Part shown: piece by piece, positions 20,903 to 34,974 of the stretch
Position numbering within the stretch: the stretch's first letter is position 1
How the letters are laid out: each line of letters starts with the position of its first letter
NCBI GenBank assembly: GCA_029880325.1
Contig: JAOUOP010000004.1
Location: forward strand, 62,001 to 126,000
Source: Myxococcales bacterium
GTDB taxonomy: Bacteria > Myxococcota_A > Polyangia > Polyangiales > JAFGIB01
Direction of reading: 5' to 3'
DNA: 64,000 nucleotides
Notes under the pieces: generated by a model
Seen by the model: the letters and a program-made list of their open reading frames with translations, nothing else
What the model was told of the DNA's origin: nothing
Databases searched by the model: none
Program-made: the position numbers and the translations under genes

Positions 20903-20906
<4 letters not shown>

Positions 20907-22531
20907 GCGTTGGGGATCTCCTGTGGTGCCATGACAAAGGCGTACTCGTAGGCGTACAGACCGGCGGTCACGAAGATCGCGGCGCCGATCTGTGCCGCGG
21001 GGGTGGCGACGGTCAAAAGCAGTAGTGGGAGCGCGTGGCCGACGACGATGGCCCCACCCCAGAAGATGTGGCGGAAGCGACCACCGGAGATTTCATGGGC
21101 GGCGCGCGCTGCGACTTCGCTCGCGTGGGACATGCCAAACTCGCCCAGCAGGATGACGAAGAGGTCGGCGAGCAGACAGCTGCCGAGCGTCCAGCGCACG
21201 ACGCTGGAGAGCTCGGAGTTGAGAACGCCAAAGCTTTCAGCCATCCACAGGGCGGCGGCGCCCATCATCGTGGCCTGTAACACCAGGTGAATGGGAAGTA
21301 GAGGGTTCTGCCACAGGTCGCGACCCTCGGCCTGGCCGAAGAGAAAGGCCGTGTAGATGGCCACGCCCGTCCCGAAAAGACCGAGCACCAGCAGCCAGGC
21401 CGGCCTGTAGGTCGTGAGATCGACGGACATGACTCCGAGATGACCGAGGGTCTCGAGTCCCCAGTAGAGCCCGAGTAGCGTGCTGTAGCCGATCAGCAGC
21501 ACCGAGCCCCGGGCCAACCAGGAGCGCCACTGGGGCCGCAAAAGAATGTAGAGAAAGCGATCCGGGCGCTCGAGATCCAGCACCAGAAATGCCGTGGTCA
21601 GTGTCATCATCAGCAGCGCCACGGCGCCGCCGTAGATGGCGGTGCTGGTTTCGTAGCTCGCCAGATCCAGCAGCCAGGCCAGCGCCAGCAGCATCCAGAC
21701 GCCGGCGCCGATCGCCTTGGTGACCAGGTAGGCAGGGACCTGCCAGTGCCAGGGCACGCGATGCTGGGCGTTGTAGCCGACTTGGGCCATATGCTGGGCC
21801 TGACGGCCGCCCAGGCGCAGTGGTCCGTGCTCTGGCAGGCCCTGGAGCTGCGGCAGTCGGCGCGCGTCTCCATTGGCTCGCGGTTGATCGTGCTCTCGGG
21901 GAGGGGCGCCGCCGGGCGCGGGTAGGGCGTCGGCCGCTGCGAAGGTTAGCGGCCGCCGTTCGGTGACCGTGGGATGCAGATTGACGTCGCTTCCGGCGAT
22001 GTAGAAGAGCTTGGGCGCCGTGCCTTGTTCCGGTTTGCGCACGGTGACCTTGGCGCGCGAAAGGGTGCGGGCGATTTCGCTGTCGGGGTCGGCAATGTCG
22101 CCGGCGATGATGGCGTGGGCCGGGCAGACGACCACGCAGGCGGGCTCCATGCCGACGCTGACGCGATGCGAGCAGTAGTGGCACTTGGCGGCGGTGTTCG
22201 TCTCCGGGTCGATGTAGATGGAGTCGTAGGGGCAGGCCTGCATGCAGGCCTTGCAGCCGATGCAGGCGTTTCCGTCGAACTCGACGATGCCGTTGTCCAT
22301 CTGCCGCATGGCCCCGGTCGGGCAGATGCGAACGCAGGGGGGGTTGTCGCAGTGGTTGCAACGGGTGACTTGAAAGTGCCGCTGCGTATCAGGATAGATA
22401 CCCGTTTCCGTGCTCTTGACCCAGGTACGATGGACCCCCAGGGGGACCGAATTCTCGCTTTTGCAGGCGGTCGAGCAGGCGTGGCAGCCGATGCAACGCT
22501 CGTTATTGATGATGAAACCGTAGCTCTGCAT
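20903..22531 (-). CDS. Fused FeS and NrfD/DmsC-like membrane subunit of the sulfite dehydrogenase (SoeB-SoeC fusion)
   Basis: 542 residues. Residues 1-185 are a four-cluster ferredoxin subunit with the motifs CIGCHACSTAC, CNHCDNPPCVRIC, CIGCKACMQAC and CHYCSHR...PACVVVC. After a Pro/Arg-rich linker (about 200-255), residues 260-535 are a DmsC/NrfD-type anchor with about eight membrane helices (VTKAIGAGVWMLLALAWLLD; LLIGYSTLLGLYWGLETLG). In the known complex these are two proteins, SoeB and SoeC. Here one ORF encodes both without a stop. The anchor passes electrons to or from the quinone pool. It is the promoter-proximal gene of the leftward operon, with a GGAGG about 14 bases before the ATG, and overlaps soeA by 4 bases. 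Confidence 0.82.
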
Positions 22532-22587
22532 GTCGTGGTCGGGTTCCTCCTACAGATCTGATACGCGCCGGATAGCGCCCCCAAAAT

Positions 22588-22608
22588 GGGACATTTTAAT
22601 TTTGTCCC
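22588..22608. promoter_or_regulatory. GGGACA-N9-TGTCCC palindrome in the divergent control region
   Basis: A 21-base interrupted palindrome with perfect 6-base arms and an AT-only centre (TTTTAATTT) lies between the soe and shdr operons. The AT-rich centre within GC-rich surroundings marks it as a promoter-associated site, either an operator or part of a core promoter for one direction. A second, longer-range inverted pair, CTGATAC (22558-22564) and GTATCAG (22628-22634), flanks it. Which regulator binds is unknown. Confidence 0.45.
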
Positions 22609-22637
22609 TTCATCCTTTGGTTGCTTCGTATCAGAAC

Positions 22638-22677
22638 ATCATGATATGAAACCCTCATGAGCTTGCAACATCATGAT
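22638..22677. promoter_or_regulatory. Three TCATGA palindromes in exact 16-base phase, probable ArsR-type operator array
   Basis: The sites are ATCATGAT (22638-22645), CTCATGAG (22654-22661) and ATCATGAT (22670-22677). Each is a self-complementary octamer containing TCATGA, and the centres are exactly 16 bases apart. The array lies directly upstream of the ArsR-family gene if that gene starts at 22717, as its RBS indicates. ArsR/SmtB regulators bind short palindromes at or near their own promoter, so autoregulation and control of the divergent sulfur-oxidation operons is the simplest reading. Confidence 0.55.
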
Positions 22678-22716
22678 GATGTGATATTTCGCCCACATCA
22701 GGGGCGAGGGCAGGGC

Positions 22717-23076
22717 ATGGTGCTTTCGATGGAACTACCGATGGAGACGCTGGAACGGGTGGCGGGGGCGCTGAAGGTCCTTGCTCATCCCTTACGGCTG
22801 AAGCTCGCGGAAATTCTCACCCAGGAAGAGCTTTCGGTATCCGTCCTCGCCGAGCGCACCGACGCGGCACAAAACCTCATCAGTCAGCACCTCAACATGA
22901 TGAAGGTCCACGGCCTTGTGACCGCGCGCCGCGACGCGCGACGCGTCTACTACCGGGCCGCTGCGCCCGAGGTCTTCACCATCATCGCCTGCATTCACAA
23001 ACACCACGGGCCCACGATTCCGCCCGAGGCAGCGGCCGACTCCACGCCCACCGATGGAGGCCCCATCAAGGCGTGA
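22717..23076 (+). CDS. ArsR/SmtB-family regulator, sHdrR-like
   Basis: 119 residues. The winged-helix HTH reads LKVLAHPLRLKLAEILTQEE, then VSVLAERTDAAQNLISQHLN, then MMKVHGLVTARRDARRVYYR, a standard ArsR domain. One Cys occurs in the whole protein, near the C-terminus (IIACIHKHHG, with His clusters next to it). sHdr-linked ArsR repressors are known to sense reactive sulfur through cysteines; a two-Cys sensor is not evident here. The start at 22717 is chosen because GAGGG lies 6 bases upstream. The farther ATG at 22657 lies inside the TCATGA array and has no RBS. It is the first gene of the rightward sulfur operon, divergent from soe. Confidence 0.82.
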   Translation: MVLSMELPMETLERVAGALKVLAHPLRLKLAEILTQEELSVSVLAERTDAAQNLISQHLNMMKVHGLVTARRDARRVYYRAAAPEVFTIIACIHKHHGPTIPPEAAADSTPTDGGPIKA

Positions 23077-23177
23077 TTTTGGTTTTTCAGGGCTACGAGC
23101 TTGCAACGGGCGTGGCCCCGGCAGGGGACGACGCCAAGCGAAAGCTCCAAACGACAACTCCAGAAGAAAGGACGTCC

Positions 23178-23558
23178 GTGTCAGAAGCCGATGAAGAAAG
23201 CGTTTTGATATTCATGACCTCCGGTCCGCAGACTCCCCAGCGCTGCGCGACTCCCTTCTACATGGCCACGATGGCGGCCGTGATGGATGCGGAAGTCGAC
23301 CTGGTTCTTCAGATCGACGGAGTGCTTCTCGTCAAAAAAGGTGTTGCCGAAGGGATGATGGCCAAGGAGGGCGGCAAGCCGATCATCGACTTTATTCGCG
23401 AGGCCACCGAAGCCGGTGTCCGCATCCATGTTTGCTCCGCAGCGCTGGGTCTGCACGACATGACCGTGGATGACTTGATCGAAGAATGCCACGGCGTGGT
23501 GGGCGCCGCCTTCATGGTGGAGCGCGGCATGGAAGCAGCCATGGTTCTCAACTACTGA
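23178..23558 (+). CDS. dsrE3: DsrE3-type sulfur-transfer protein
   Basis: 126 residues, a single DsrE/DsrF-like domain. It begins SVLIFMTSGPQTPQRCATPF, followed by AEVDLVLQIDGVLLVKKGVA and the conserved IHVCSAALGLHDMTVDDLIE with Cys86, the likely persulfide-carrying residue of the DsrE3 group. Cys23 and Cys104 are additional. The GTG start at 23178 has AGAAAGGA upstream; an earlier GTG at 23073 lacks one. DsrE3 proteins occur beside shdr clusters, where they exchange sulfane sulfur with TusA. It is cytoplasmic. It sits between the regulator and lbpA in the operon. Confidence 0.82.
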   Translation: MSEADEESVLIFMTSGPQTPQRCATPFYMATMAAVMDAEVDLVLQIDGVLLVKKGVAEGMMAKEGGKPIIDFIREATEAGVRIHVCSAALGLHDMTVDDLIEECHGVVGAAFMVERGMEAAMVLNY

Positions 23559-23573
23559 AACTCAGGAGCCGAG

Positions 23574-24038
23574 ATGCCTTCAATCGCGAACTGCTCGATC
23601 CCCGATGATTTGTTCTATCACGTCGAAAACAATACGTGGTTGCGCGACTGCGGCAACGACGTCTTCGAACTCGGCATGACCGATATCGCCCAGTCCCTGG
23701 CTGGCGCCGTGATCCATTGCCGCATCAAGAAAGCCGGCAAGGGCGTCAAAGAGGGCAAAAGCCTGGCGACAGTCGAGAGCGGCAAGTGGGTCGGTCCGGT
23801 CAAGGCGCCGTTTGCGTGCGAAATCGTCGAACGCAACGAGGCTGTCGAACAGGACGCGTCCCTGCTCAACAAGAGTCCCTACGAGCGCGGCTGGATCGCG
23901 CGCATCAAACCGGCCGACCCCGCGGCGGCGCGCGCCTCGCTGCTGGACGCAGCAAGCGCTGTGCCCGGCTTCGAGGAATACATGAAGCAGCACGGCATCA
24001 CCGAGTGTACGCACTGCGAGGGCTGTGACCTTCCATGA
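23574..24038 (+). CDS. lbpA: Lipoate-binding protein LbpA (GcvH-like) of the sHdr pathway
   Basis: 154 residues with the GcvH beta-barrel fold: HVENNTWLRDCGNDVFELGM, TDIAQSLAGAVIHCRIKKAG, and the lipoylation turn LATVESGKWVGPVKAPF with Lys71. The ESGKWVGPV version of this turn is the hallmark of sHdr-linked LbpA rather than glycine-cleavage GcvH, which has a different sequence around its Lys. In the pathway the dihydrolipoyl arm carries the sulfur being oxidized to sulfite by the sHdr proteins. The C-terminus carries an extra CTHCEGC motif (C145, C148, C151). AGGAG precedes the ATG. The stop overlaps shdrC1 by 4 bases. Confidence 0.9.
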   Translation: MPSIANCSIPDDLFYHVENNTWLRDCGNDVFELGMTDIAQSLAGAVIHCRIKKAGKGVKEGKSLATVESGKWVGPVKAPFACEIVERNEAVEQDASLLNKSPYERGWIARIKPADPAAARASLLDAASAVPGFEEYMKQHGITECTHCEGCDLP

Positions 24039-24769
24039 GCACCGATCCTCGCAAGCTTCCGATCCACGCCGACGCGCGCCACGCGGACGTCCCGCTCGAG
24101 GAAAAGCAGCGGCTCTTCGACGAAGTCGTTGCCGACACCCGCTATCACGATACGCTCTACGGCTGCTATGAGTGCGGCATCTGTGTCGCAGCTTGCCCAT
24201 CGGCTCGTTTCTACGACTTCAGCCCGCGCGTCTTCGCTCAGACGCTGGCGCGAAAAGACGTCCACGGCTTTTATGAGCTGCTCGTGGACTCGGTTTGGGA
24301 CTGCTCCCAGTGCTTTTCGTGCACCCGCTGTCCCCGACAGAACAGCCCGGGAGGGCTGATCACGATCATGCGCGAAGTGGCCGTGAACAACGGGTTGCAG
24401 AGCGCAAAGGATGCGCTGGCTGCCTACAGCCGCGTTATCTACAAGGTGATGTCCACCGGTACACAAGTCTCACCGGACATGCTCCAGCCGGATTTTTTTC
24501 CGGACTGGGGGCCTGACGTTCAGGCGGTCTCCGACAACCTGGAGACCTGGAGGCGGGCGATCCCAACCGAGACCCTGCATACGCTCGAGTTGGCCTGGGA
24601 TGTGAGTGAAAAAACTCGCGTCGAACTGTTTCTTATCTGGAAGTTAACCGGCAATTTCGATATGATCGAAAAGATCGACGAGTCGAGCTACTTGATCCTC
24701 GAAGAGATTATGGAAGAGCTCCTCGAAGAGCACGGTTACGACTTCGACGACATCGAATCCATCATTTGA
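24035..24769 (+). CDS. shdrC1: sHdrC1, two-cluster ferredoxin subunit
   Basis: 244 residues. Two [4Fe-4S] motifs are visible: CYECGICVAAC (Cys44, 47, 50, 54) with a following Pro, and CSQCFSCTRCP (Cys90, 93, 96, 99). The second motif departs from CxxCxxCxxxC by having only two residues before its last Cys. Between and after them the protein is helical, ending in an acidic tail (EEHGYDFDDIESII). HdrC proteins pass electrons between the flavin-bearing HdrA and the cysteine-rich HdrB. The order LbpA-C1-B1-A-H is the shdr core order. It starts in an ATGA overlap with lbpA and its stop overlaps a TTG in front of shdrB1. Confidence 0.88.
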   Translation: MSTDPRKLPIHADARHADVPLEEKQRLFDEVVADTRYHDTLYGCYECGICVAACPSARFYDFSPRVFAQTLARKDVHGFYELLVDSVWDCSQCFSCTRCPRQNSPGGLITIMREVAVNNGLQSAKDALAAYSRVIYKVMSTGTQVSPDMLQPDFFPDWGPDVQAVSDNLETWRRAIPTETLHTLELAWDVSEKTRVELFLIWKLTGNFDMIEKIDESSYLILEEIMEELLEEHGYDFDDIESII

Positions 24770-24798
24770 ACCCGGCGGGCCCGACGCAGTACTCCAGT

Positions 24799-25995
24799 AT
24801 GAACGACTCAGAATCTACCCCTCAGCAAAAAGCTCGAACCAAGCTTCAGGTGATCACGCGCAAGCCGCGCAAGATACCCGAGCGCTACTACAAGGATGAA
24901 TTGCTCGAGCTCGAGGCCAAGGGTGAGATCGTCGTTCAACGCATTCCCGACACCTTCGTCGAGGTCGAGGCGCGCGGTGGTCGCAAGAAGAAAATCCCGA
25001 CCAACAAGCTGTGGCATCACAAGAGCTGCGGTCAATGTGGCCACATTCCCGGCTATCCGACCTCCATTCTCTGGATGATGAACCAGATGGGAGTCGACCA
25101 CCTCGACCCGCGCGATCAGACCAGCTGCACCGGCTGGAACTACTACGCTTCAGCCACTTCCAATCCCGTGGCGCAGGCCGCGGTGGCGGTTCGCAACTTC
25201 GTGCAGGCAGAGCGTGATGGATATTTCCCGCTGATTCACTGCGGGACCAGCTATGGGCACTACAAAGAGGTCCGCGAAGAGCTGATCCACCACCCGGACA
25301 TTCGCGAAAAACTGCGGCGCGTGATGGACAAACTGCAGATGCCCGTGGTCTTCCCGGAGGAGCTGGTGCACTACTCCGAGTGGCTGCATGTGGTGCGGCA
25401 CGAAGTCGCCGCACGCCAGGTTCTCGACGTGAGCGACGTCACCATCGCAGTGCATCCGGCCTGTCACTACCACAAGCTGATTCCAGACGATGCCATCTAC
25501 GACCGCGATGTGCTCAGCGGCGAGCGTACGGCTGTCGTCACGGCCATCGCCCAGGCGCTTGGGGCCAAGGTGGGAGACTACTCCACCTGGCACGACTGCT
25601 GCGGCTTTGGCTTTCGCCATATCCTGGTGAGCCGCGATTTCACGCGCTCGTTTGCGACCCTGCGGAAGATCGAGCGCATCAAGGAAGAGGTGCAGGCGGA
25701 CCTCGTACTGGCGCACGACACCGGCTGCGTGACGACGCTTGATAAGAGCCAGTTCGCAGCCCGGGGTCACAACCGCAACGTGGGCATCGCCGTCATGGCT
25801 GACTGCCAGTTTGCTGCGCTTGCCATGGGAGCGCACCCCTACAAGGTGGTGCAGCTGCACTGGCACGGCGTCGACAGTCGACCGACGCTGCGCAAGATGG
25901 GCATCGATCCGGAAGCGGCCTGGAAGGAGTTCGAAGAGCTTACCGCCAAGATCAACGCCGGAGAGGTCGAGTTTCTCACCTGGGGAGATTGCTGA
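24799..25995 (+). CDS. shdrB1: sHdrB1, cysteine-rich (CCG) subunit
   Basis: 398 residues from the ATG. A TTG at 24766, overlapping the previous stop, is an alternative start adding 11 residues. Two HdrB-type cysteine regions are present: SCGQCGHIPGYPTSILW (C77, C80) with QTSCTGWNYYAS (C110), and HPACHYHKLIP (C222) with DCCGFGFRHI (C267, C268) and HDTGCVTT (C310). In classical HdrB these bind noncubane [4Fe-4S] clusters that act on a disulfide. In sHdr they are thought to act on the lipoyl-bound sulfur. The last CxxC of the second region is reduced to a single Cys. The stop overlaps the shdrA start. Confidence 0.88.
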   Translation: MNDSESTPQQKARTKLQVITRKPRKIPERYYKDELLELEAKGEIVVQRIPDTFVEVEARGGRKKKIPTNKLWHHKSCGQCGHIPGYPTSILWMMNQMGVDHLDPRDQTSCTGWNYYASATSNPVAQAAVAVRNFVQAERDGYFPLIHCGTSYGHYKEVREELIHHPDIREKLRRVMDKLQMPVVFPEELVHYSEWLHVVRHEVAARQVLDVSDVTIAVHPACHYHKLIPDDAIYDRDVLSGERTAVVTAIAQALGAKVGDYSTWHDCCGFGFRHILVSRDFTRSFATLRKIERIKEEVQADLVLAHDTGCVTTLDKSQFAARGHNRNVGIAVMADCQFAALAMGAHPYKVVQLHWHGVDSRPTLRKMGIDPEAAWKEFEELTAKINAGEVEFLTWGDC

Positions 25996-27050
25996 TGGGC
26001 AAGAAGGTTCTGATCGTTGGAGCGGGCCCGGCCGGCCTGGAAGCGGCTCGAGGTCTCTTGGACCTGGGGCAGTCGGTCCTACTCGTGGAGAAGCAGGCCA
26101 CCCTGGGCGGCAAGCCGATCCACTCCGACTATGCGGCGCTGACGCCCGACATGCGTCCGGCTTCGGTCGCGATGCAGGAGATGATCGACGGGGTCACCGC
26201 CCATGGCGACGCCGTCGACATTCGCACCGAGACCCAGGTCGTCGCGTGTCAGGGTGACGCGCCGGATCTGACGGTGACGCTGCGGGGCCCGGCCGGCGAA
26301 GCCACCGAAGAAGTGGCGGCAGCCATCCTCTGCACCGGTTTTGATCACTTTGACCCGGGATCCGAGACGCAGATGTACGGCTACTACGAGTACGCCGACG
26401 TCATCACGCTTGCCGATGCCGAGCGCATGCTCAAGGCGGGGCAAGTCGTGCGCCCTTCCAACGGCGAGCCTCCGCGGCAGCTGTGTTTTATCCAATGCGT
26501 GGGCAGTCGCGATCGCCAGATCGGAAACCAATGGTGCTCGAAGGTTTGCTGCGGCATCGCCTGCAAGCAGTCCATCGAGTTTCGCCAGGCCCTCGGCGAT
26601 GCGCGTGTTTTCATCTTCTACATCGACCTGCGTGCCTATGGCTTCTGGGAAGACGAACTCTACTGGCGGGCCCAGGAGCAGCATAACGTGAACTTCGTAC
26701 GCGGGATCGTGACGGAGGTCACCAAGCGCGGCGATCAGCTGTTGGTGAAAGGTGAAGACACCACCATGGGCCGGCCCATGGAAGTGCTCATGGACATGGT
26801 GATCCTTTCGGTGGGGATGGAGCCGAGCGCTGGCACCATCGAGATGTCGAAGGTCTTCGAGTTGCCGCGCGAGAGTCACGGCTTCATCGAGACCATCGGG
26901 GGGCCGCTCAATACGGTGGTCACGAGCCGCAAGGGCATCTTCGTCGCCGGAGCCGCCACGGGCCCGGCGGATCTAGAAGACACTGTCTCGTCGGCTTCCG
27001 CGGCGGCACTGAAAGCGGCGACCTTCATTCGCATGGCCGGTGGTCGGTGA
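25995..27050 (+). CDS. shdrA: sHdrA, FAD/FeS core subunit
   Basis: 351 residues. The N-terminal FAD motif is MGKKVLIVGAGPAGLEAARG (GxGxxG at 9-14), then LLVEKQATLGGKP. A second flavin-binding strand ends in AAILCTGFDHFDPG, and the HdrA cluster-binding region follows: CVGSRD (C168) with CSKVCCGIAC (C181, C185, C186, C190). The C-terminus closes with GIFVAGAATGPADLEDTVSS. sHdrA proteins are shorter than methanogen HdrA because they lack extra ferredoxin domains, and this one fits. It starts at an ATG overlapping the shdrB1 stop and overlaps shdrH by 4 bases. Confidence 0.9.
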   Translation: MGKKVLIVGAGPAGLEAARGLLDLGQSVLLVEKQATLGGKPIHSDYAALTPDMRPASVAMQEMIDGVTAHGDAVDIRTETQVVACQGDAPDLTVTLRGPAGEATEEVAAAILCTGFDHFDPGSETQMYGYYEYADVITLADAERMLKAGQVVRPSNGEPPRQLCFIQCVGSRDRQIGNQWCSKVCCGIACKQSIEFRQALGDARVFIFYIDLRAYGFWEDELYWRAQEQHNVNFVRGIVTEVTKRGDQLLVKGEDTTMGRPMEVLMDMVILSVGMEPSAGTIEMSKVFELPRESHGFIETIGGPLNTVVTSRKGIFVAGAATGPADLEDTVSSASAAALKAATFIRMAGGR

Positions 27051-27817
27051 TCGAGGCTTCCACCGAGCCCCAGATGGCAACGGTCGACTCCCTGTCGGCC
27101 CACGAGCTGCTCAAGCAGGCGACGCGGTTGGCGTCGACCAGCGACTTGAGCGAGATCGGTCGCCTGCTGCAGGACAAGCACGTGCGTTTCGCCGAGAGCC
27201 TCAGTCCCGGGTCGCTCGAGCGCCTCGACGCCGAGGCCCTGCAAGGGCTTCTCGGACTGGTGTTTTCGGTGCGCAGTCGGCGCAGGGCGTTGCTGCGCGA
27301 GCAGGGGGCCTCGGCACTCAGGGATTCCATCGCGCGCCTGCTCTGGGGTGATGATGCCTACGGCGTCCGCTTCAGCCGCTTCGTCAGTGAGCAGCAGACG
27401 CTGGACCGCAGGAGGGCGCGGGCACTTGCCAGCGAGTTATTGCACTTCACCGATCCGAGTCGCTACTGGCTATGGACCCACTGGATCTGGGATCCCGAGG
27501 CGGAGTCGGGCGTTCTGCGGCTGCTGACCGATGAAGAGGGCGCCCCGTCGCGCAGCGGCGCCGACGAGGGGCTTCTCTATCAGCTGGTCTGCACGCGGTC
27601 TTTGAGCGTGTACCTCGACGGAAGGAAGTCGGGCTACATCCAGTTGGCAGAAGGGTCGTTGGGGGCGGACGCATTTTTCGCCGTCGTCTACTCGGTCTAC
27701 ATGCTCACGCTCTATCGCCTCAAGCTTTCGGAGAATTTCGACCGCTTTCTGCCGCGTCTTCCGGAGCTGGCCCGGCGACTGCTTGGTGTTCAACATTTGC
27801 CGAACGAGAGGGCCTGA
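27047..27817 (+). CDS. shdrH: sHdrH, small accessory protein of the sHdr cluster
   Basis: 256 residues from a GTG overlapping the shdrA stop (GTGA). It is largely helical, with few motifs: LSAHELLKQATRLASTSDLS near the start, HFTDPSRYWLWTHWIWDPEA in the middle and FFAVVYSVYMLTLYRLKLSE near the end. It has one Cys (LVCTRS). I recognise it by position: the hypothetical gene after shdrA is a fixed member of shdr clusters and has no counterpart in methanogen hdr operons. The aromatic segment suggests protein or membrane contacts, but no cofactor motif is present. Its function is unknown. Confidence 0.72.
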   Translation: MIEASTEPQMATVDSLSAHELLKQATRLASTSDLSEIGRLLQDKHVRFAESLSPGSLERLDAEALQGLLGLVFSVRSRRRALLREQGASALRDSIARLLWGDDAYGVRFSRFVSEQQTLDRRRARALASELLHFTDPSRYWLWTHWIWDPEAESGVLRLLTDEEGAPSRSGADEGLLYQLVCTRSLSVYLDGRKSGYIQLAEGSLGADAFFAVVYSVYMLTLYRLKLSENFDRFLPRLPELARRLLGVQHLPNERA

Positions 27818-27819
27818 AG

Positions 27820-29097
27820 GTGGCGAAGTACGAGCGTGATGAATCCTATGTCGAGCTCGACCATGTGGAGGTCGATGGAGTCGATATTTCGGGGCACTGG
27901 AACCGGATGTATCAGCCGCGGGAAATCACGGCTTTCACTCCGGAGAAGATCGAAGAGCTCGCGGCGCTTTCGGGAGCGGAATCCATTGCCTACTGCTACC
28001 AGTGCGCCAAGTGCGTCGGTGTCTGTCCCGTGGATGCCGCCGGTGGCGACTACGGGCCGCGCAAGATCTACCGGAGACTGCAGACCGGCCTGAACATCTT
28101 CGATTCGCCTGACCTTTGGAAGTGCACGACCTGCCAGAACTGCGTGCGGGTGTGCCCGAAGGGGGTCGACATGGTGCAGATCATGCCGGCCGCACGCGAG
28201 CGCTCGGTGCTCGACGGGAAGGTGCCGCCCGAGTTGCAGGAGATGTTCGAGCACGTCGCCGAGTATGGCAATCCGATGGGCGAGTCGCCCCGTAAGCGCG
28301 AACGCTGGATCAAGCAGGCCGGAGTCGAGGTCCCCATCCTGGCCAAGACCAAGGCGCCGGTCGATATCCTCTGGTTTGTCGGTGACTTCTACGCCTACCA
28401 CAAGCGAGGACAGGACGCCGCAGGCGCCATGGCGCGGGTCTTTAGCCGCCTGGGAATCGACTTCGGCATTCTCGGCAAGGACGAGCGCAGCGACGGTGAT
28501 TCGCAGCGCCTGGCCGGCGAGCCGGGGCTTTTCGAAAGCGTTGCGGAACACAATATTCAAGAGTTCCAGAAGTACGAGTTCAACCGGATCGTGGTCTCGG
28601 GTCCCCACGCGCTCAACGCCATCAAGACCCAATACCCAAAGCTCGGCGGTCAGTTCGAGGTCGAGCACTACACGCAGCTGCTGGCCCCAAAGCTCGATGC
28701 GCTCGGTCCGTTGCTGACGAAATCCTTCGACCGCAAGGTCACCTTTCACGACCCGTGTTACCTGGGACGCCACCACGGGGAATACGACGCGCCGCGCAAG
28801 CTGCTTACCGCGGTGCCGGGTTTGCAGCTGACGGAGATGTTCCGCTGCAAGGAGCAGGGCTATTGCTGCGGCGGCGGAGGCGGCGGCATGTGGCTCGACG
28901 GTTTCATGGCCGACCAGGTCAGCGAGAGGCTGTCGGAAAAGCGCGTTCGCGAGGCCGTGGAAGTCGGTGCCGAGGTGCTGGCGGTGTGCTGTCCCTACGA
29001 GGTTTCGCGCTTCGAGGACGCGGTCAAGTCCACGGGAAATGATGGTGCCCTGGAGGTCCTGGACATCATCGAAATCCTCGATGGGTGCATGGAGTAG
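27820..29097 (+). CDS. shdrB3: sHdrB3-like FeS/CCG protein
   Basis: 425 residues from a GTG preceded by GAGGG. The N-terminal part has two [4Fe-4S] motifs, CYQCAKCVGVCP (C59, 62, 65, 69) and CTTCQNCVRVCPKG (C102, 105, 108, 112). The C-terminal half has two CCG-type blocks: HDPCYLGRHHGEYDAP with YCCGGGGGGMW, and AVCCPYEVSRFED. This HdrD-like combination (HdrC and HdrB in one chain) followed by etfBA and an Emo-like gene is the type II shdr arrangement, in which it replaces the separate HdrC2/HdrB2 pair. It resembles the soluble half of the Emo-like protein downstream, so the two are paralogues. It would move electrons from sHdrA toward EtfAB. Confidence 0.82.
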   Translation: MAKYERDESYVELDHVEVDGVDISGHWNRMYQPREITAFTPEKIEELAALSGAESIAYCYQCAKCVGVCPVDAAGGDYGPRKIYRRLQTGLNIFDSPDLWKCTTCQNCVRVCPKGVDMVQIMPAARERSVLDGKVPPELQEMFEHVAEYGNPMGESPRKRERWIKQAGVEVPILAKTKAPVDILWFVGDFYAYHKRGQDAAGAMARVFSRLGIDFGILGKDERSDGDSQRLAGEPGLFESVAEHNIQEFQKYEFNRIVVSGPHALNAIKTQYPKLGGQFEVEHYTQLLAPKLDALGPLLTKSFDRKVTFHDPCYLGRHHGEYDAPRKLLTAVPGLQLTEMFRCKEQGYCCGGGGGGMWLDGFMADQVSERLSEKRVREAVEVGAEVLAVCCPYEVSRFEDAVKSTGNDGALEVLDIIEILDGCME

Positions 29098-29102
29098 TTG
29101 AG

Positions 29103-29147
29103 TTCACGTGAGTTGGCCCGGGACGGTCCCGGGGCGTGAAGTGTTTT
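29103..29147 (+). terminator. Hairpin with T5 run between shdrB3 and etfB (possible attenuator)
   Basis: Outer arms TTCACG (29103-29108) and CGTGAA (29135-29140) enclose a perfect inner palindrome CCCGGGAC-G-GTCCCGGG (29117-29133), followed by GTGTTTTT. It sits in the only sizeable gap inside the otherwise overlapping operon, 23 bases before etfB's RBS region. It has the shape of an intrinsic terminator. Because etfBA and emo are needed with shdr, partial termination or RNA stabilization is more likely than a full stop. Confidence 0.5.
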
Positions 29148-29163
29148 TCGATGAGGTAACGCA

Positions 29164-29913
29164 ATGCATGTCGTGGTGATAGCCAAGCGGGTCCCCGATC
29201 TGGTCGAGGATCTGGTCATCGACTCGGAGGGCAGGGCGCTCGACCCTGACGAGACGGAGTACAAGCTCAACGAGTTCGACGATCAGGCCCTGGAGCAGGC
29301 GCTTCTGATCAAGGACGCACATGGGTGCAAGGTCAGCGTCCTCATGCATGACGCCGATGGGGTAGACAAGATTCTCTACACGGCGCTTGCGAAGGGCGCC
29401 GACAGCGCGATCAAGGTCTGCACCGACGCGGAGGAGCTGGACGGAAACTTCGCGCTGGCGCAGGCGATGGCGGCGGCGCTCGGCACCCTGGACTACGACC
29501 TGGTGTTGACGGGCGTGCAGGGGGCCGATGATCGGGATGGGCAGCTCGGGCCGCTTTTGGCGTCACTGCTCGACGTCCCGTGTGTGAACGTGGCCAGCGG
29601 TGTCTCGGCGGCGGACGGCGCGGTCACGGTTCACAAGGAATATTCGGGCGGCAAGATGGCGCGCTTTTCCATGGCCCTGCCCGGGCTCCTCGGAATCCAG
29701 GCCGCGGCCCAGAGCCCGCGCTACGTGCCGGTTTCGAAGGTGCGGGCGGTGCAGAAGGAAGCGAGTCTGCAGGAACTGGAAGTCGAGGGTGATTTCGAGC
29801 CGCTGTCGCGGGTGGCGGCCATGAGCGCACCCGAGCAGAGCGCGGGCGCGAAGATGCTGGGCGGAGCCCCAGAGCTGCTCGCGTTGCTCAAGGAACAAGG
29901 AGTGGTGTCATGA
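29164..29913 (+). CDS. etfB: Electron transfer flavoprotein beta subunit
   Basis: 249 residues with the ETF-beta order: MHVVVIAKRVPDLVEDLVID, then YKLNEFDDQALEQALLIKDA, the ADSAIKV strand, and DLVLTGVQGADDRDGQLGPL, which contains the adenine/AMP-contacting signature. The C-terminus ends near the etfA start (ATGA overlap). The GAGGT RBS precedes the ATG. ETF takes electrons from a dehydrogenase and passes them to a membrane oxidoreductase. In this operon the donor is expected to be the sHdr complex and the acceptor the Emo-like protein. The pair could also be bifurcating, but no dedicated evidence is visible. Confidence 0.92.
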   Translation: MHVVVIAKRVPDLVEDLVIDSEGRALDPDETEYKLNEFDDQALEQALLIKDAHGCKVSVLMHDADGVDKILYTALAKGADSAIKVCTDAEELDGNFALAQAMAAALGTLDYDLVLTGVQGADDRDGQLGPLLASLLDVPCVNVASGVSAADGAVTVHKEYSGGKMARFSMALPGLLGIQAAAQSPRYVPVSKVRAVQKEASLQELEVEGDFEPLSRVAAMSAPEQSAGAKMLGGAPELLALLKEQGVVS

Positions 29914-30836
29914 AGGCCCTGGTTGTCGCAGAACATCTGGGCGGAAAGCTCGCCGAGATCACCTTCGAGATGATCGCCCTGGCGCAGCAGAGCTTTGGCG
30001 GCTGTGACCTCGCGCTGATCGGTGGCGACGACTCGATGCTAGCGGAGCTGGGCGCGGTCGGCACGGTCTACCGGGCTGAGGGCGCCGGCCTCGAGCACTA
30101 CGAACCCGAGCGCTACACCGATTGCCTGGCTGCGATCATCGAGGCGGCGGCGCCCGCCCGCGTTTGCTTCGGGCATACCTCCATGGGCATGGACCTGGCC
30201 AGTAGCCTCAGCGCGCGTCTCAAGGCGCCCCTGGCCAACGCCTGCATTGCTGCCGACACCAGCGGGGCCACCTCCAGGATTCTCGGAGGCAAGATGAACG
30301 CACAGGTCGCCCTCGACGGGGAGCTGGCGCTGCTCACCATCGCCTCCGGGGCGGCCTCGGCTGCGGACGGTCGCCTCGCGGGCAGTCCCGCGACGAACTC
30401 CGTGGCGGCGCCCCCCGAGCGCGGTCGCATTCGCTTCGAGGCCATGGTCGAACCCGAGGCCGCAGATGTCGACATCACAACCCAAGAAGTGTTGGTCGCC
30501 ATCGGGCGCGGAATCGGAAACCAGGAGGGCGTGGAGACTGCCCAGGAGTTGGCCAACGCGCTCGGCGCAGCGGTTGCGGCGTCGCGTCCCATCATCGACG
30601 CCGGCTGGCTGCCCAAGTCTCGCCAGGTCGGCAAGTCGGGGCTCTCGGTGACTCCCAAGCTCTACCTGGCCCTTGGCATCTCGGGCGCACCGGAACACCT
30701 GGAGGGCATGCGCGGGTCGGCGACCATCGTCGCGGTCAACACTGACGCCAATGCCCCCATCTTCCAGGTGGCGGACTACGGACTGGTCGGAGACCTGTAC
30801 GAGGTCTGTGAAGAACTCATGGAGGAAATCGAATAA
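29910..30836 (+). CDS. etfA: Electron transfer flavoprotein alpha subunit
   Basis: 308 residues. The C-terminal FAD domain is clear: [20 protein letters not shown], then [19 protein letters not shown], and the signature [20 protein letters not shown] followed by [20 protein letters not shown]. The N-terminal domain ([20 protein letters not shown]) is complete. It begins in an ATGA overlap with etfB and ends 4 bases before the Emo-like gene, so the three are one translation unit. With etfB it forms the soluble one-protein link from sHdr to the membrane. Confidence 0.92.
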
Positions 30837-30840
30837 GCCC

Positions 30841-32985
30841 GTGAGTAGTCCGGCTGCAATTTCCTTTTTGGTCACCGGCGGCGCGCAGGTCGAGCGCGAA
30901 GTCTTCCGCGGCTTCAGCGCCGCCGAGCGCGCCGGTTTCTACGCCCTGACCGTCGTGACCGTCGCCCTCTTCTTCGCGGGCGTCTACCGGCTCTACCGGA
31001 AGTACCGGGGCAGCGGTAGCAGCACGGCCGACTTCATCGCGCGCATTCGCCTCGGGCCCGCACTGGCGACGGTCGCCAGTCACGCCACGATACGGCGCCG
31101 CGATGGTTTCGTCGGCATGGCGCACTCGCTGGTCTTCTGGGGCTTCGTCGTGCTCTTCCTCGGCACCGCGACCATCGCCATCGACGAAGACTTCGTGCAG
31201 CTGCTCTTCGGCAAGGGTGCCAAACTGCTGGTTGGTAACGTCTACCTCGGTTTCTCCTTTCTGATGGACCTCGCAGGGCTGGCTTTCATCGTCGGTCTGC
31301 TGATGCTGATGCTGCGGCGCTCGCTCTTTCGGCCCGAGAAGCTCGACTATGGGCGTAACGACCGGGAGGATGGGGCAAGCGAGCGAGAGTCCTATCGCAA
31401 GGGTGACGCGGTCTTTCTCTGGTTGCTGCTCGTCATCGCCGTGAGCGGCTTTCTGCTGGAGGCTGCGCGCATTGCCGCGACGCTCGAAGCGGCGCCGTTC
31501 GAGGTCTGGTCGTTCGTGGGCTATGGCCTGGCCACGGCCCTTGGTGGCGCTCTGGCCTCGGATGGGGCGTTTGCGGGTCTGTGGTGGTTTCACGTGGTCG
31601 CGGTCTTCGGCTTCTTGGCTTATTTGCCGAGGTCGAAGGCCGTGCATATTTTGACCGACGTCGCCGCGCTGGCCACGCGCGACCCGGCGGCCGCCATCGT
31701 GCTGCCCGTGCTGCAAGAAGACCGCGGCATCATCCGCAGGGCTGAGGACTTTACCTTCCGGCAGCGGTTGGCCTTCGACGCCTGTACCAAGTGCGGTCGT
31801 TGCCACGAGGCTTGCCCGGCGCGGGTCACGGGCGCCCCGCTGTCGCCCCGGGACCTGATCCTCGACTTGCGCGAAAAGGTCAACCACGGCGCAGGGCAGC
31901 TCGAGTTCTTCGGTCGCACGCGCCCCGATGTGGGCAGCGAGCAGCCGCTCAGTGGAGGCTACATCGCCAGCGAGACGCTATGGTCCTGCACGACCTGTCG
32001 GGCCTGCGTCGAAGCCTGCCCCGTGGGCATCGAACACGTGGTCGACATCGTTGAGATGCGCCGCGCGCTCGTCGAAGAGGGCTCGCTTCCCGACAGCCTT
32101 CAGGACGCCCTGCGTTCGCTGGACGAAAAGGGCAACTCTTTCGGTGAGTCTGCGCGCAAGCGCGGTAAGTGGACCAAGGCGCTGGACTTCGAGGTCCCGG
32201 ATGCCACCAAGGAAGAGGTGGAATACCTCTGGTTCGTGGGTGACTTCGCTTCCTACAACGCGACGGCGGTGACAGGAACCCAGCAGCTCGCGCGGATCTT
32301 GCACGCGGCGGGCGTGAGCTTCGGTCTGCTGTACAAAGCCGAAAAATCGGCCGGCAACGATGTCCGGCGCGTGGGTGAAGAGGGGCTCTTCGAGGCGCTG
32401 GCCACCGACAACGCCGAGGCGCTCGAAAAGGCGCGCTTCAAGAAGATCCTGACGACCGACCCCCACAGCTTCAACACCCTGCGCAACGAATACCCGCGGC
32501 TGGGCCACAACTACGAGGTGGTGCACTACACGGAGCTGCTGCTGGAGCTGATCGTGCGGGGTGCGCTCACCCTCGAAGCGGCGGGCTCGAGGCGCGTCAC
32601 CTACCACGACCCCTGTTACCTCGGACGCTACAACGGCATCTACGATGTGCCGAGACAGGTGATCGCGGCCAGCGGCGCCGAGTTGGTGGAGATGCCGCGC
32701 AACCGGGACAATTCCTTTTGCTGTGGTGCCGGCGGTGGACGCATTTGGATGCCGGACCCGGAGGGGATCAAGGAGCGCCCCTCGGAAAACCGCATTCGAG
32801 AGGCCGTTGAACTCGGAGTGGACCTCTTCGTGGTGGCCTGCCCCAAGGATATGAGCATGTTCAGCGACGCCGTGAAGACGACCGGGAACGAGTCGAAAAT
32901 CCGGGTCGTCGATCTTTCAGAGCTCGTGCTCGACGCCATGTCGAGTGCGGAGCAGCCACAACTCAAGGAGGCGATGCATGGCTGA
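30841..32985 (+). CDS. emo: Emo-like ETF:quinone oxidoreductase (membrane HdrD-type)
   Basis: 714 residues from a GTG. The first 260 residues hold about six membrane helices of NarI/HdrE type (FYALTVVTVALFFAGVYRLY; AHSLVFWGFVVLFLGTATIA; AVFLWLLLVIAVSGFLLEAA; FHVVAVFGFLAYLPRSKAVH), with His residues in several, suited to heme b. The soluble part has two [4Fe-4S] motifs, CTKCGRCHEACP and CTTCRACVEACPVG, and two CCG blocks, HDPCYLGRYNGIYD with FCCGAGGGRIW, and VACPKDMSMFSD. This domain order is that of EtfD/Emo proteins that oxidize reduced ETF and reduce menaquinone. Placement directly after etfBA supports it. Its end overlaps tusA by 8 bases. Confidence 0.86.
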   Translation: MSSPAAISFLVTGGAQVEREVFRGFSAAERAGFYALTVVTVALFFAGVYRLYRKYRGSGSSTADFIARIRLGPALATVASHATIRRRDGFVGMAHSLVFWGFVVLFLGTATIAIDEDFVQLLFGKGAKLLVGNVYLGFSFLMDLAGLAFIVGLLMLMLRRSLFRPEKLDYGRNDREDGASERESYRKGDAVFLWLLLVIAVSGFLLEAARIAATLEAAPFEVWSFVGYGLATALGGALASDGAFAGLWWFHVVAVFGFLAYLPRSKAVHILTDVAALATRDPAAAIVLPVLQEDRGIIRRAEDFTFRQRLAFDACTKCGRCHEACPARVTGAPLSPRDLILDLREKVNHGAGQLEFFGRTRPDVGSEQPLSGGYIASETLWSCTTCRACVEACPVGIEHVVDIVEMRRALVEEGSLPDSLQDALRSLDEKGNSFGESARKRGKWTKALDFEVPDATKEEVEYLWFVGDFASYNATAVTGTQQLARILHAAGVSFGLLYKAEKSAGNDVRRVGEEGLFEALATDNAEALEKARFKKILTTDPHSFNTLRNEYPRLGHNYEVVHYTELLLELIVRGALTLEAAGSRRVTYHDPCYLGRYNGIYDVPRQVIAASGAELVEMPRNRDNSFCCGAGGGRIWMPDPEGIKERPSENRIREAVELGVDLFVVACPKDMSMFSDAVKTTGNESKIRVVDLSELVLDAMSSAEQPQLKEAMHG

Positions 32986-33202
32986 CGTTACGCTTGATTG
33001 TCGAGGGCTGAACTGCCCGATCCCGATCGTGAAAATTAGCAAGTCGATCAAGGCCATGGAGAAGGGGCAGCAGCTCGAGGTCGTGGCCACCGATCCGGCC
33101 TTTGAGGCCGACTTGCAGGCGTGGGCCAAGCGGCTGAAGCACAAGGTTGTGGCGCTGAATGTGGAGTCCGATTCGATCACAGCCGTGATCGAGAAATCCT
33201 AG
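32978..33202 (+). CDS. tusA: TusA sulfur carrier
   Basis: 74 residues with the TusA signature DCRGLNCPIPIVKISKSIK. Cys13 in the CPxP motif is the persulfide-bearing residue; Cys8 is the other Cys. The end NVESDSITAVIEKS completes the two-layer sandwich. The ATG at 32978 has AAGGAGG upstream and lies inside the end of the emo gene. TusA receives sulfane sulfur from rhodanese or DsrE proteins and delivers it in sulfur-oxidation pathways. DsrE2 follows directly, a pair known from sulfur oxidizers. Confidence 0.93.
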   Translation: MADVTLDCRGLNCPIPIVKISKSIKAMEKGQQLEVVATDPAFEADLQAWAKRLKHKVVALNVESDSITAVIEKS

Positions 33203-33214
33203 GTGAGGTTGAGT

Positions 33215-33853
33215 ATGGCCGATGGTGCACAAGAGAGTGAGGCGAGGGCGCGTCGTCTGGAGGAACTTCGGGCAGCGGCGGATCCCAAGACGCTGGCCTA
33301 CATCGACGCGTACGTGGAAGATGCGCTCGGAGAGCGCCTGAAGGCGCTCGACCAGCGGATTGAGGAGCTCGCCGAGGGTCAGCTCTCGGACCGCGCCACG
33401 ATCGTTGTTTTCAGCGGAGACTTCGACCGGCTGATGGCGGCCTTCATCATCGCCACGGGCGCGGTTGCCATGGGCTTTGAGGTCTCCATGTACTTCACCT
33501 TCTGGGGCCTGACGGCGCTGAAGAAGGAGACGCGCTACAAGGGCAAGGGAATCCTCGAGAAGATGGTTTCCGTCAATCTGCCGGGTGGTCCCGATTCCGT
33601 GGGCACCTCAAAGATGAACATGATGGGAATGGGTCCGCTGTTCTTCAAGGCGCTGATGAAGAAGAACCACGTCGAGACGCTCCCGGACATGATCGACCTC
33701 GCGCGGGAGATGGAGGTGCGCATGGTGGCCTGCCAGATGTCCATGGGCGTGATGGGCATCGAGAAGGAAGAGTTGATCGACGGTATCGACTATGGCGGCG
33801 TGGCGACCTATCTCGGCGACGGGACCGACTCGAAGATCACGCTGTTTATATGA
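33215..33853 (+). CDS. dsrE2: DsrE2-type protein
   Basis: 212 residues. After a charged coiled-coil-like N-terminus (EALGERLKALDQRIEEL-type) comes the DsrE2 domain: TIVVFSGDFDRLMAAFIIAT, then GAVAMGFEVSMYFTFWGLTA, a NMMGMGPLFFKALMKKN stretch, and the conserved VACQMSMGVMGIEKEELIDG with the only Cys (C173). The hydrophobic segments suggest membrane contact, as described for DsrE2. It is the usual partner of TusA. The ATG at 33215 has GAGG upstream. The stop overlaps the next radical SAM gene by 4 bases. Confidence 0.88.
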   Translation: MADGAQESEARARRLEELRAAADPKTLAYIDAYVEDALGERLKALDQRIEELAEGQLSDRATIVVFSGDFDRLMAAFIIATGAVAMGFEVSMYFTFWGLTALKKETRYKGKGILEKMVSVNLPGGPDSVGTSKMNMMGMGPLFFKALMKKNHVETLPDMIDLAREMEVRMVACQMSMGVMGIEKEELIDGIDYGGVATYLGDGTDSKITLFI

Positions 33854-34974
33854 GCCGAACTCTCGGAAAGAGGGGCGCGGCGCCGCGGCGCCTGCCGGTT
33901 TTGGAGGCGGCACCCGAAACCAAGAGGCTCATCGGCCAGCACCACCCCGAGGTCCACGACGGTGCCGAGGACCTCGGGGCGCTCGACAGCTGGGACGAAG
34001 AAGAGGACTTCGAGCCGAGCGTGCCCCCGGAGTACGCAGCGGGGTTCGAGATTCGAAAGCAAAACTTCGACAACGCCATTGGCTTTTACGCGCCGGCACT
34101 CAAGACCTACGAGACCGACGACTTCAGCAACTGTGGCATGTGTTCGTTCGTCGGCGTGTCGGTCACCGGTCCGGCCTGCGCCCTGCAGTGCGACCACTGC
34201 CAGGCCAATGTGCTCAAGCCGATGATCGCGACGACGTCGCCCGAGCGGCTGTGGGAGGTGGCGCAGGCCGAAGCGGCCCGCGGGTCGGGGGGGCTGCTGA
34301 TCAGCGGGGGCTCCGACCGCAAGAACGTGGTGCGCTTGCATCGCTTCGTCGACACCATGGCGCGCATCAAGCAGGAACTGGGCATGCGCCTTCTGGTGCA
34401 TGTCGGCTACGCCGACGAGGAACTGGCGCAGGGGCTTGCCCGGGCCTCGGTCGATTCGGTGATGCTGGACATCATCGGATCCGACGACACGATTCGTGAG
34501 GTCTACCATTTGCCGTGGGCCACGACCGACTGCTACCGCCGCACCCTGGAGGTGCTCAGCGCCCACGGACTGCCGCTGTCGCCGCATGTGGTCATCGGGC
34601 TGCACTGGGGCGAGATTCGCGGCGAGTATCGGGCGCTGGAGATGATCGCCGAGTTTCCGCGGCAGTCGCTGGTGCTGGTGGGGCTGCAGCCCACGGCCGG
34701 GACGCCGATGGCCCATGCGAAGGGGCCGACACCGGACGCGATGGGTGGGGTGTTCCGCGAAGCGCGCCAGCGCTTTCCGAGCACGTCGATTCTGCTGGGG
34801 TGCGAGCGCCCCTACGGTGAAGCCAAGCGGCGCACCGATGAGCTGGCTGTGAAGGCAGGGCTGAACGGGATCGCCTATCCAGCGGAAGGCATCGTTCGGC
34901 TTGCCGTGCGGCTCGGGCTTCAGATCCGTCGCTCGGCGATGTGTTGTTCTCTCAACTTTCAGGAATTTACATGA
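33850..34974 (+). CDS. Radical SAM protein, LipS1/LipS2-type lipoyl synthase component (first)
   Basis: 374 residues. After an acidic N-terminus, a CxxC pair (C95, C98 in SNCGMCSFVGV) precedes the radical SAM motif CALQCDHC (C110, C114, C117). The body has GGLLISGGSDRKNVVRLHRF, SVDSVMLDIIGSDDTIREVY and VVIGLHWGEIRGEY, and the C-terminus has CCS (residues 366-368), which may bind an auxiliary cluster, as expected for an enzyme that inserts sulfur. sHdr clusters carry a dedicated lipoate assembly route with two radical SAM proteins, LipS1 and LipS2. Position with lbpA, a ligase remnant and a second radical SAM gene makes this the natural assignment; which of the two it is I cannot decide. ATGA overlaps on both sides. 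Confidence 0.7.
   Translation: MSRTLGKRGAAPRRLPVLEAAPETKRLIGQHHPEVHDGAEDLGALDSWDEEEDFEPSVPPEYAAGFEIRKQNFDNAIGFYAPALKTYETDDFSNCGMCSFVGVSVTGPACALQCDHCQANVLKPMIATTSPERLWEVAQAEAARGSGGLLISGGSDRKNVVRLHRFVDTMARIKQELGMRLLVHVGYADEELAQGLARASVDSVMLDIIGSDDTIREVYHLPWATTDCYRRTLEVLSAHGLPLSPHVVIGLHWGEIRGEYRALEMIAEFPRQSLVLVGLQPTAGTPMAHAKGPTPDAMGGVFREARQRFPSTSILLGCERPYGEAKRRTDELAVKAGLNGIAYPAEGIVRLAVRLGLQIRRSAMCCSLNFQEFT

Follow-up and report, generated by a model that had tools for sequence, protein, structure and literature searches.

A probable double ArsR-type operator between divergent soe and shdr operons in a Myxococcales genome

According to the literature found, control of sHdr, the system of cytoplasmic sulfur oxidation, has been worked out for two-cysteine repressors in Hyphomicrobium. 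The reports on Hyphomicrobium denitrificans give Cys50 and Cys116 as the cysteines of sHdrR/SoxR (PMC12423496, PMC10451225), and one of them states that many shdr-linked ArsR proteins are without the sHdrR cysteines and may act differently (PMC12423496). The recognition site of SqrR is ATTC-N8-GAAT (PMC9774250). We describe here an ArsR-type gene at the head of an shdr operon, together with the DNA that separates it from a divergent soe operon. The window (the whole 64-kb stretch that was analyzed) carries the following genes around this 185-bp intergenic region:

20903 to 22531, minus strand: head gene of the divergent operon, an apparent SoeB-SoeC-like fusion with an Fe-S domain and NrfD, from family matches.
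22717 to 23076, plus strand: ArsR-type regulator of 119 aa with one Cys, in alpha5; Pfam HTH_5/HTH_20 and NCBIfam HTH_metalloreg above cut-off.
23073 to 29097, plus strand: start of the shdr operon, with DsrE-like, LbpA/GcvH-like, HdrC-like, HdrB-like, HdrA-like, hypothetical, and HdrC/HdrB-like genes.

The first four genes of the shdr operon were named from family matches and the later ones only from a reading of the sequence; further Hdr- and Etf-like genes follow downstream on the plus strand. The minus strand on the left side also encodes a molybdoenzyme resembling SoeA, identified by family matches and by the neighborhoods of relatives. The SoeB- and SoeC-like parts appear as a single 542-aa reading frame (20903-22531), in which the linker is unusual; it may be a fusion or a frameshift.

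At the thresholds used, sHdrB1 was found in this genome only when 184 genomes of the order and 379 of a phylum sample were searched, and close footprinting was therefore impossible. The viral contigs searched yielded no sHdrB1, and the regulator itself, used as the query against genome contigs, gave no match. The nearest sHdrB1 in named genomes, 69% identical, belongs to an Acidobacteriota genome. Contamination was ruled out, as the composition of the contig matches that of the other contigs. The native composition of the shdr cluster (22717-34974) and the absence of sHdrB1 elsewhere in the order suggest either acquisition followed by amelioration or loss in the other genomes.

The product of the 22717 gene contains the winged-helix domain of the ArsR/SmtB family (PF01022, 27.6 bits with a cut-off of 22; NF033788, 76.9 bits with a cut-off of 55), and it scored 59.7 bits against the BigR equivalog NF040642, below the curated cut-off of 155. 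The first conserved Cys of BigR/SqrR/sHdrR (ILC motif) is Glu in this protein, and the second, near the C-terminus, is missing, the only Cys aligning four or more residues earlier. The initial annotation had called the gene sHdrR-like, which is correct loosely, for an ArsR-type gene, but does not extend to the switch cysteines of sHdrR/SoxR/BigR, both of which are missing. Where HlyU has Cys, the regulator has HHG, the HlyU residue lying just past the end of the alignment.

Homologues of the regulator were taken from a set of 80 related loci collected in a scan with sHdrB1, which contained 33 of them. The sole Cys of the window protein falls in an alpha5 column that is Cys in 28 of these 33 shdr-linked homologues; C-x3-C is present in 20 of them, C-x3-H in the window regulator, and the first BigR/SqrR Cys in none of the 33 (L009-L088). 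By their aligned residues, the homologues agree with PMC12423496 on the missing cysteines, and the alpha5 Cys motif suggests itself as a candidate sensing motif. The choice of 22717 over an upstream ATG as the start codon, also made in the initial annotation, is supported: GAGGGCAGGGC precedes 22717, and the N-terminus then has about the length seen in homologues L060, L075, and L057. A start at 22657, which would make the third palindrome coding, has no purine-rich stretch upstream as a ribosome site and is disfavored by this and by the N-termini of the homologues.

The intergenic region contains the following elements, of which the dyads are candidate operators and the promoter is weak:

22628 to 22647, no strand: candidate dyad 1, GTATCAGAACATCATGATAT; exact RTAT-N12-ATAY, arms complementary at 5 of 6 positions, inner register ATCA-N8-TGAT.
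22638 to 22645, no strand: palindrome 1, ATCATGAT, at the inner end of dyad 1.
22641 to 22668, minus strand: weak sigma-70-like promoter towards soe (TTGCAA, 16-bp spacer, TATCAT).
22654 to 22661, no strand: palindrome 2, CTCATGAG, centered at 22657.5, midway between the dyads; does not form a dyad of the shared type.
22668 to 22687, no strand: candidate dyad 2, ACATCATGATGATGTGATAT, the weaker of the two (one mismatch) and the mirror image of dyad 1.
22670 to 22677, no strand: palindrome 3, ATCATGAT, at the inner end of dyad 2.

TCATGA occurs three times, at 22639-22644, 22655-22660, and 22671-22676, exactly 16 bp from center to center; both this phase and the position between the divergent sulfur operons, soe and shdr, are as the initial annotation had given them. 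The pair TCATGA-N10-TCATGA is found at a single place in the 8.16-Mb genome, namely here, and the backwards control pattern at none; 100 shuffled versions of the window did not contain the spaced triple, even when three mismatches were permitted. A looser search of the whole window, for three copies of any 6-bp palindrome with the same step of 8-40 between them, returned 0.125 cases per shuffled window, or one in about eight, which makes a triple of this kind only slightly unusual over 64 kb. When the 185-bp intergenic region was shuffled instead, no such triple appeared in 20,000 trials. The TCATGA array is real, and the strength of the finding rests on its location. A fortuitous set of ATGAT repeats in an AT-rich promoter region, with no regulatory role, would agree with the frequency of triples in shuffled windows and with a local motif score that reaches only p about 0.03 (below), but the intergenic shuffles and a layout that fits the operators of relatives at the expected place render this explanation very improbable.

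The exact pattern RTAT-N12-ATAY is present in the window in dyad 1 alone. With one mismatch, RTATMR-N8-YKATAY has two matches in the window, the second and last of which is dyad 2. ATCA-N8-TGAT occurs three times in 64 kb compared to 0.29 expected, and two of the three (22630-22645 and 22670-22685) lie within the dyads. The dyads are in opposite orientation with centers 40 bp apart, about four helical turns. Their inner ends are the outer ATCATGAT palindromes, which result from the ATCA at the end of the spacer running into the TGAT arm; the middle palindrome CTCATGAG matches no dyad and is without the flanks of the outer two. In the 8.16-Mb genome, the exact pattern has 15 matches compared to 8 for the backwards control, so that a match alone is not proof and its place counts.

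The putative promoter towards soe matches 9 of 12 consensus positions, with 0.5 expected by chance, which is weak evidence; its −10 falls inside dyad 1. Several other repeats were observed in the region. The inverted repeat TGATGTG-N10-CACATCA at 22677-22700 overlaps dyad 2 and may be a further pair of half-sites before the start codon. A perfect 9-base inverted repeat (TCTGATACG/CGTATCAGA) lies at 22557-22565 and 22627-22635, 61 bp apart, and its left arm repeats the RTATCA half-site closer to soe.

At the promoters of relatives, the element common to the ArsR and shdr genes is the same 20-bp dyad, RTAT-N12-ATAY, whose half-sites are spaced by 16 bp. It was present in 10 of 30 deduplicated ArsR promoters, the other 20 being without the exact dyad, and in 7 of 52 TusA promoters; the pattern was framed after the window had been seen, and its enrichment was measured on the relatives only. 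A scan of spacers from N=4 to 25 in these promoters peaked at N=12, and among intergenic gaps of equal G+C, the dyad was found in 6 of 37 near ArsR/TusA compared to 0 of 190 elsewhere. ATAT boxes 16 bp apart were present in 9 of 29 ArsR promoters (not deduplicated) compared to a shuffled mean of 0.57; three such boxes in exact 16-bp phase had four matches in 1.0 Mb, every one at an ArsR promoter and representing three independent cases, since loci L017 and L022 are near-identical. Judged from these sequences, the 16-bp phase is a recurring property of such operators and follows from how far apart their half-sites lie. The regulator homologues are 26-48% identical, and the result is therefore a recurrence of the motif rather than an alignment of orthologous intergenic DNA. 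With the shdr-linked ArsR operator defined as RTAT-N12-ATAY upstream of the ArsR or the first shdr gene, the window has one at 22628-22647.

A 20-bp motif built from the relatives only scored highest in the window at 22627-22646, and its seventh-ranked match, inverted relative to the first, is at 22669-22688; compared to shuffles of the intergenic region, the score has p about 0.03, which is modest by itself. With a core-12 motif, the site ranked fourth in the window, not first, and with a width-16 motif, the best intergenic match ranked sixth. The stricter relatives-only consensus RTATMG-N8-CKATAY, at two mismatches, matched the window no better than chance and was not relied on. Soe-shdr intergenic promoters of Chloroflexota read TTGACA...TATATAGGCACATCGCGATAC, and their palindromic core ATCGCGAT corresponds to ATCATGAT in the window. 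Five Chloroflexota loci (L047, L056, L061, L064, and L086) have near-identical divergent soe/tusA promoters with TTGACA-TATATA, in which the dyad overlaps the −10 box, as at 5470-5515 of L086.

Three equivalent TCATGA palindromes, each occupied by an ArsR dimer and cooperating in 16-bp phase, would account for the exact spacing, the uniqueness in the genome, and the empty intergenic shuffles. Among the 80 related loci, however, none has TCATGA in 16-bp phase; what recurs at the ArsR promoters is a 16-bp phase of ATAT boxes. Neighboring sites 16 bp apart, about 1.5 turns, would face opposite sides of the helix, the middle site is unlike the other two in its flanks, and a site of 6-8 bp is short for an ArsR dimer. 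Three dimers on three equivalent palindromes are accordingly less likely than a double operator, and we consider them an unlikely arrangement; the earlier proposal that the palindromes suit ArsR dimers is retained for the type of operator, most likely an ArsR one, and replaced by two dyads for the number of sites.

A second alternative is that the palindromes serve, instead of the adjacent ArsR protein, some regulator encoded elsewhere or a protein that activates the soe or the shdr promoter. Between the array and soe, at 22588-22608, lies an unrelated 21-bp palindrome, GGGACATTTTAATTTTGTCCC, in its sole exact copy in the genome; it is possibly the site of another regulator, and more than one regulator may thus act here. 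RTAT-N12-ATAY nevertheless recurs beside ArsR genes in relatives, and ArsR proteins usually come with an autoregulated neighboring gene, which makes another protein at the palindromes rather improbable.

The explanation we favor, and hold to be fairly likely, is that the array is a double operator of the ArsR-family repressor encoded at 22717. One ArsR dimer would bind each 20-bp dyad (22628-22647 and 22668-22687) through the half-site RTATCA and its complement 16 bp apart; at about four turns, the two dimers would share a face of the helix and could cooperate, and the middle TCATGA would mark the axis between them. Bound dimers would block both promoters, that of shdr and the divergent one of soe, and an effector of the regulator would lower its affinity and relieve the block. 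The double operator would serve the autoregulation of the 22717 gene with its shdr operon and would probably cover the divergent soe promoter too. The sequences themselves show this layout and the enrichment of the dyad at the ArsR/shdr promoters of relatives; we infer that the protein binds there, that it represses both operons, that the dimers cooperate, and that the signal is derived from sulfur. Such a layout could coordinate sulfite oxidation (soe) with sHdr.

A broader reading, somewhat less than evenly probable in our estimate, is that the regulator belongs to a widespread class of shdr-linked ArsR proteins in several phyla, which would be without the BigR/SqrR Cys pair, sense by the alpha5 C-x3-C (C-x3-H here), and use an operator of their own, RTAT-N12-ATAY, sometimes in copies phased at 16 bp. 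Such a class would be an example of the “different modes of action” noted for shdr regulators (PMC12423496). For the shdr-linked ArsR regulators of several phyla without the sHdrR cysteines, the comparison offers an operator defined concretely enough to be tested and a candidate motif for sensing.

By sequence, the best-scoring solved relative of the regulator is NolR (PDB 4omy/4omz; E 1.3e-14, residues 10-99). The biological role of NolR is different. BigR (NCBIfam NF040642) and HlyU share the fold family, and their winged-helix domain aligns with that of the window regulator, but their first Cys is replaced by Glu in the window protein, and its BigR score is under the cut-off. The sHdrR/SoxR system resembles this locus in layout, by an ArsR-type repressor gene beside the shdr cluster and by an intergenic region with repeats, bound there by the regulator (PMC12423496, PMC10451225); the window protein has neither Cys50 nor Cys116. 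SqrR/YgaV are likewise ArsR-family regulators, with autoregulation of the neighboring gene in the case of YgaV (PMC9774250), and both of their sensing cysteines are missing in the window protein. Their operator has a 4-8-4 register identical to that of the two ATCA-N8-TGAT elements, whereas the half-sites differ by two changed bases, ATTC-N8-GAAT itself has no match in the window, and the window carries two mirrored copies.
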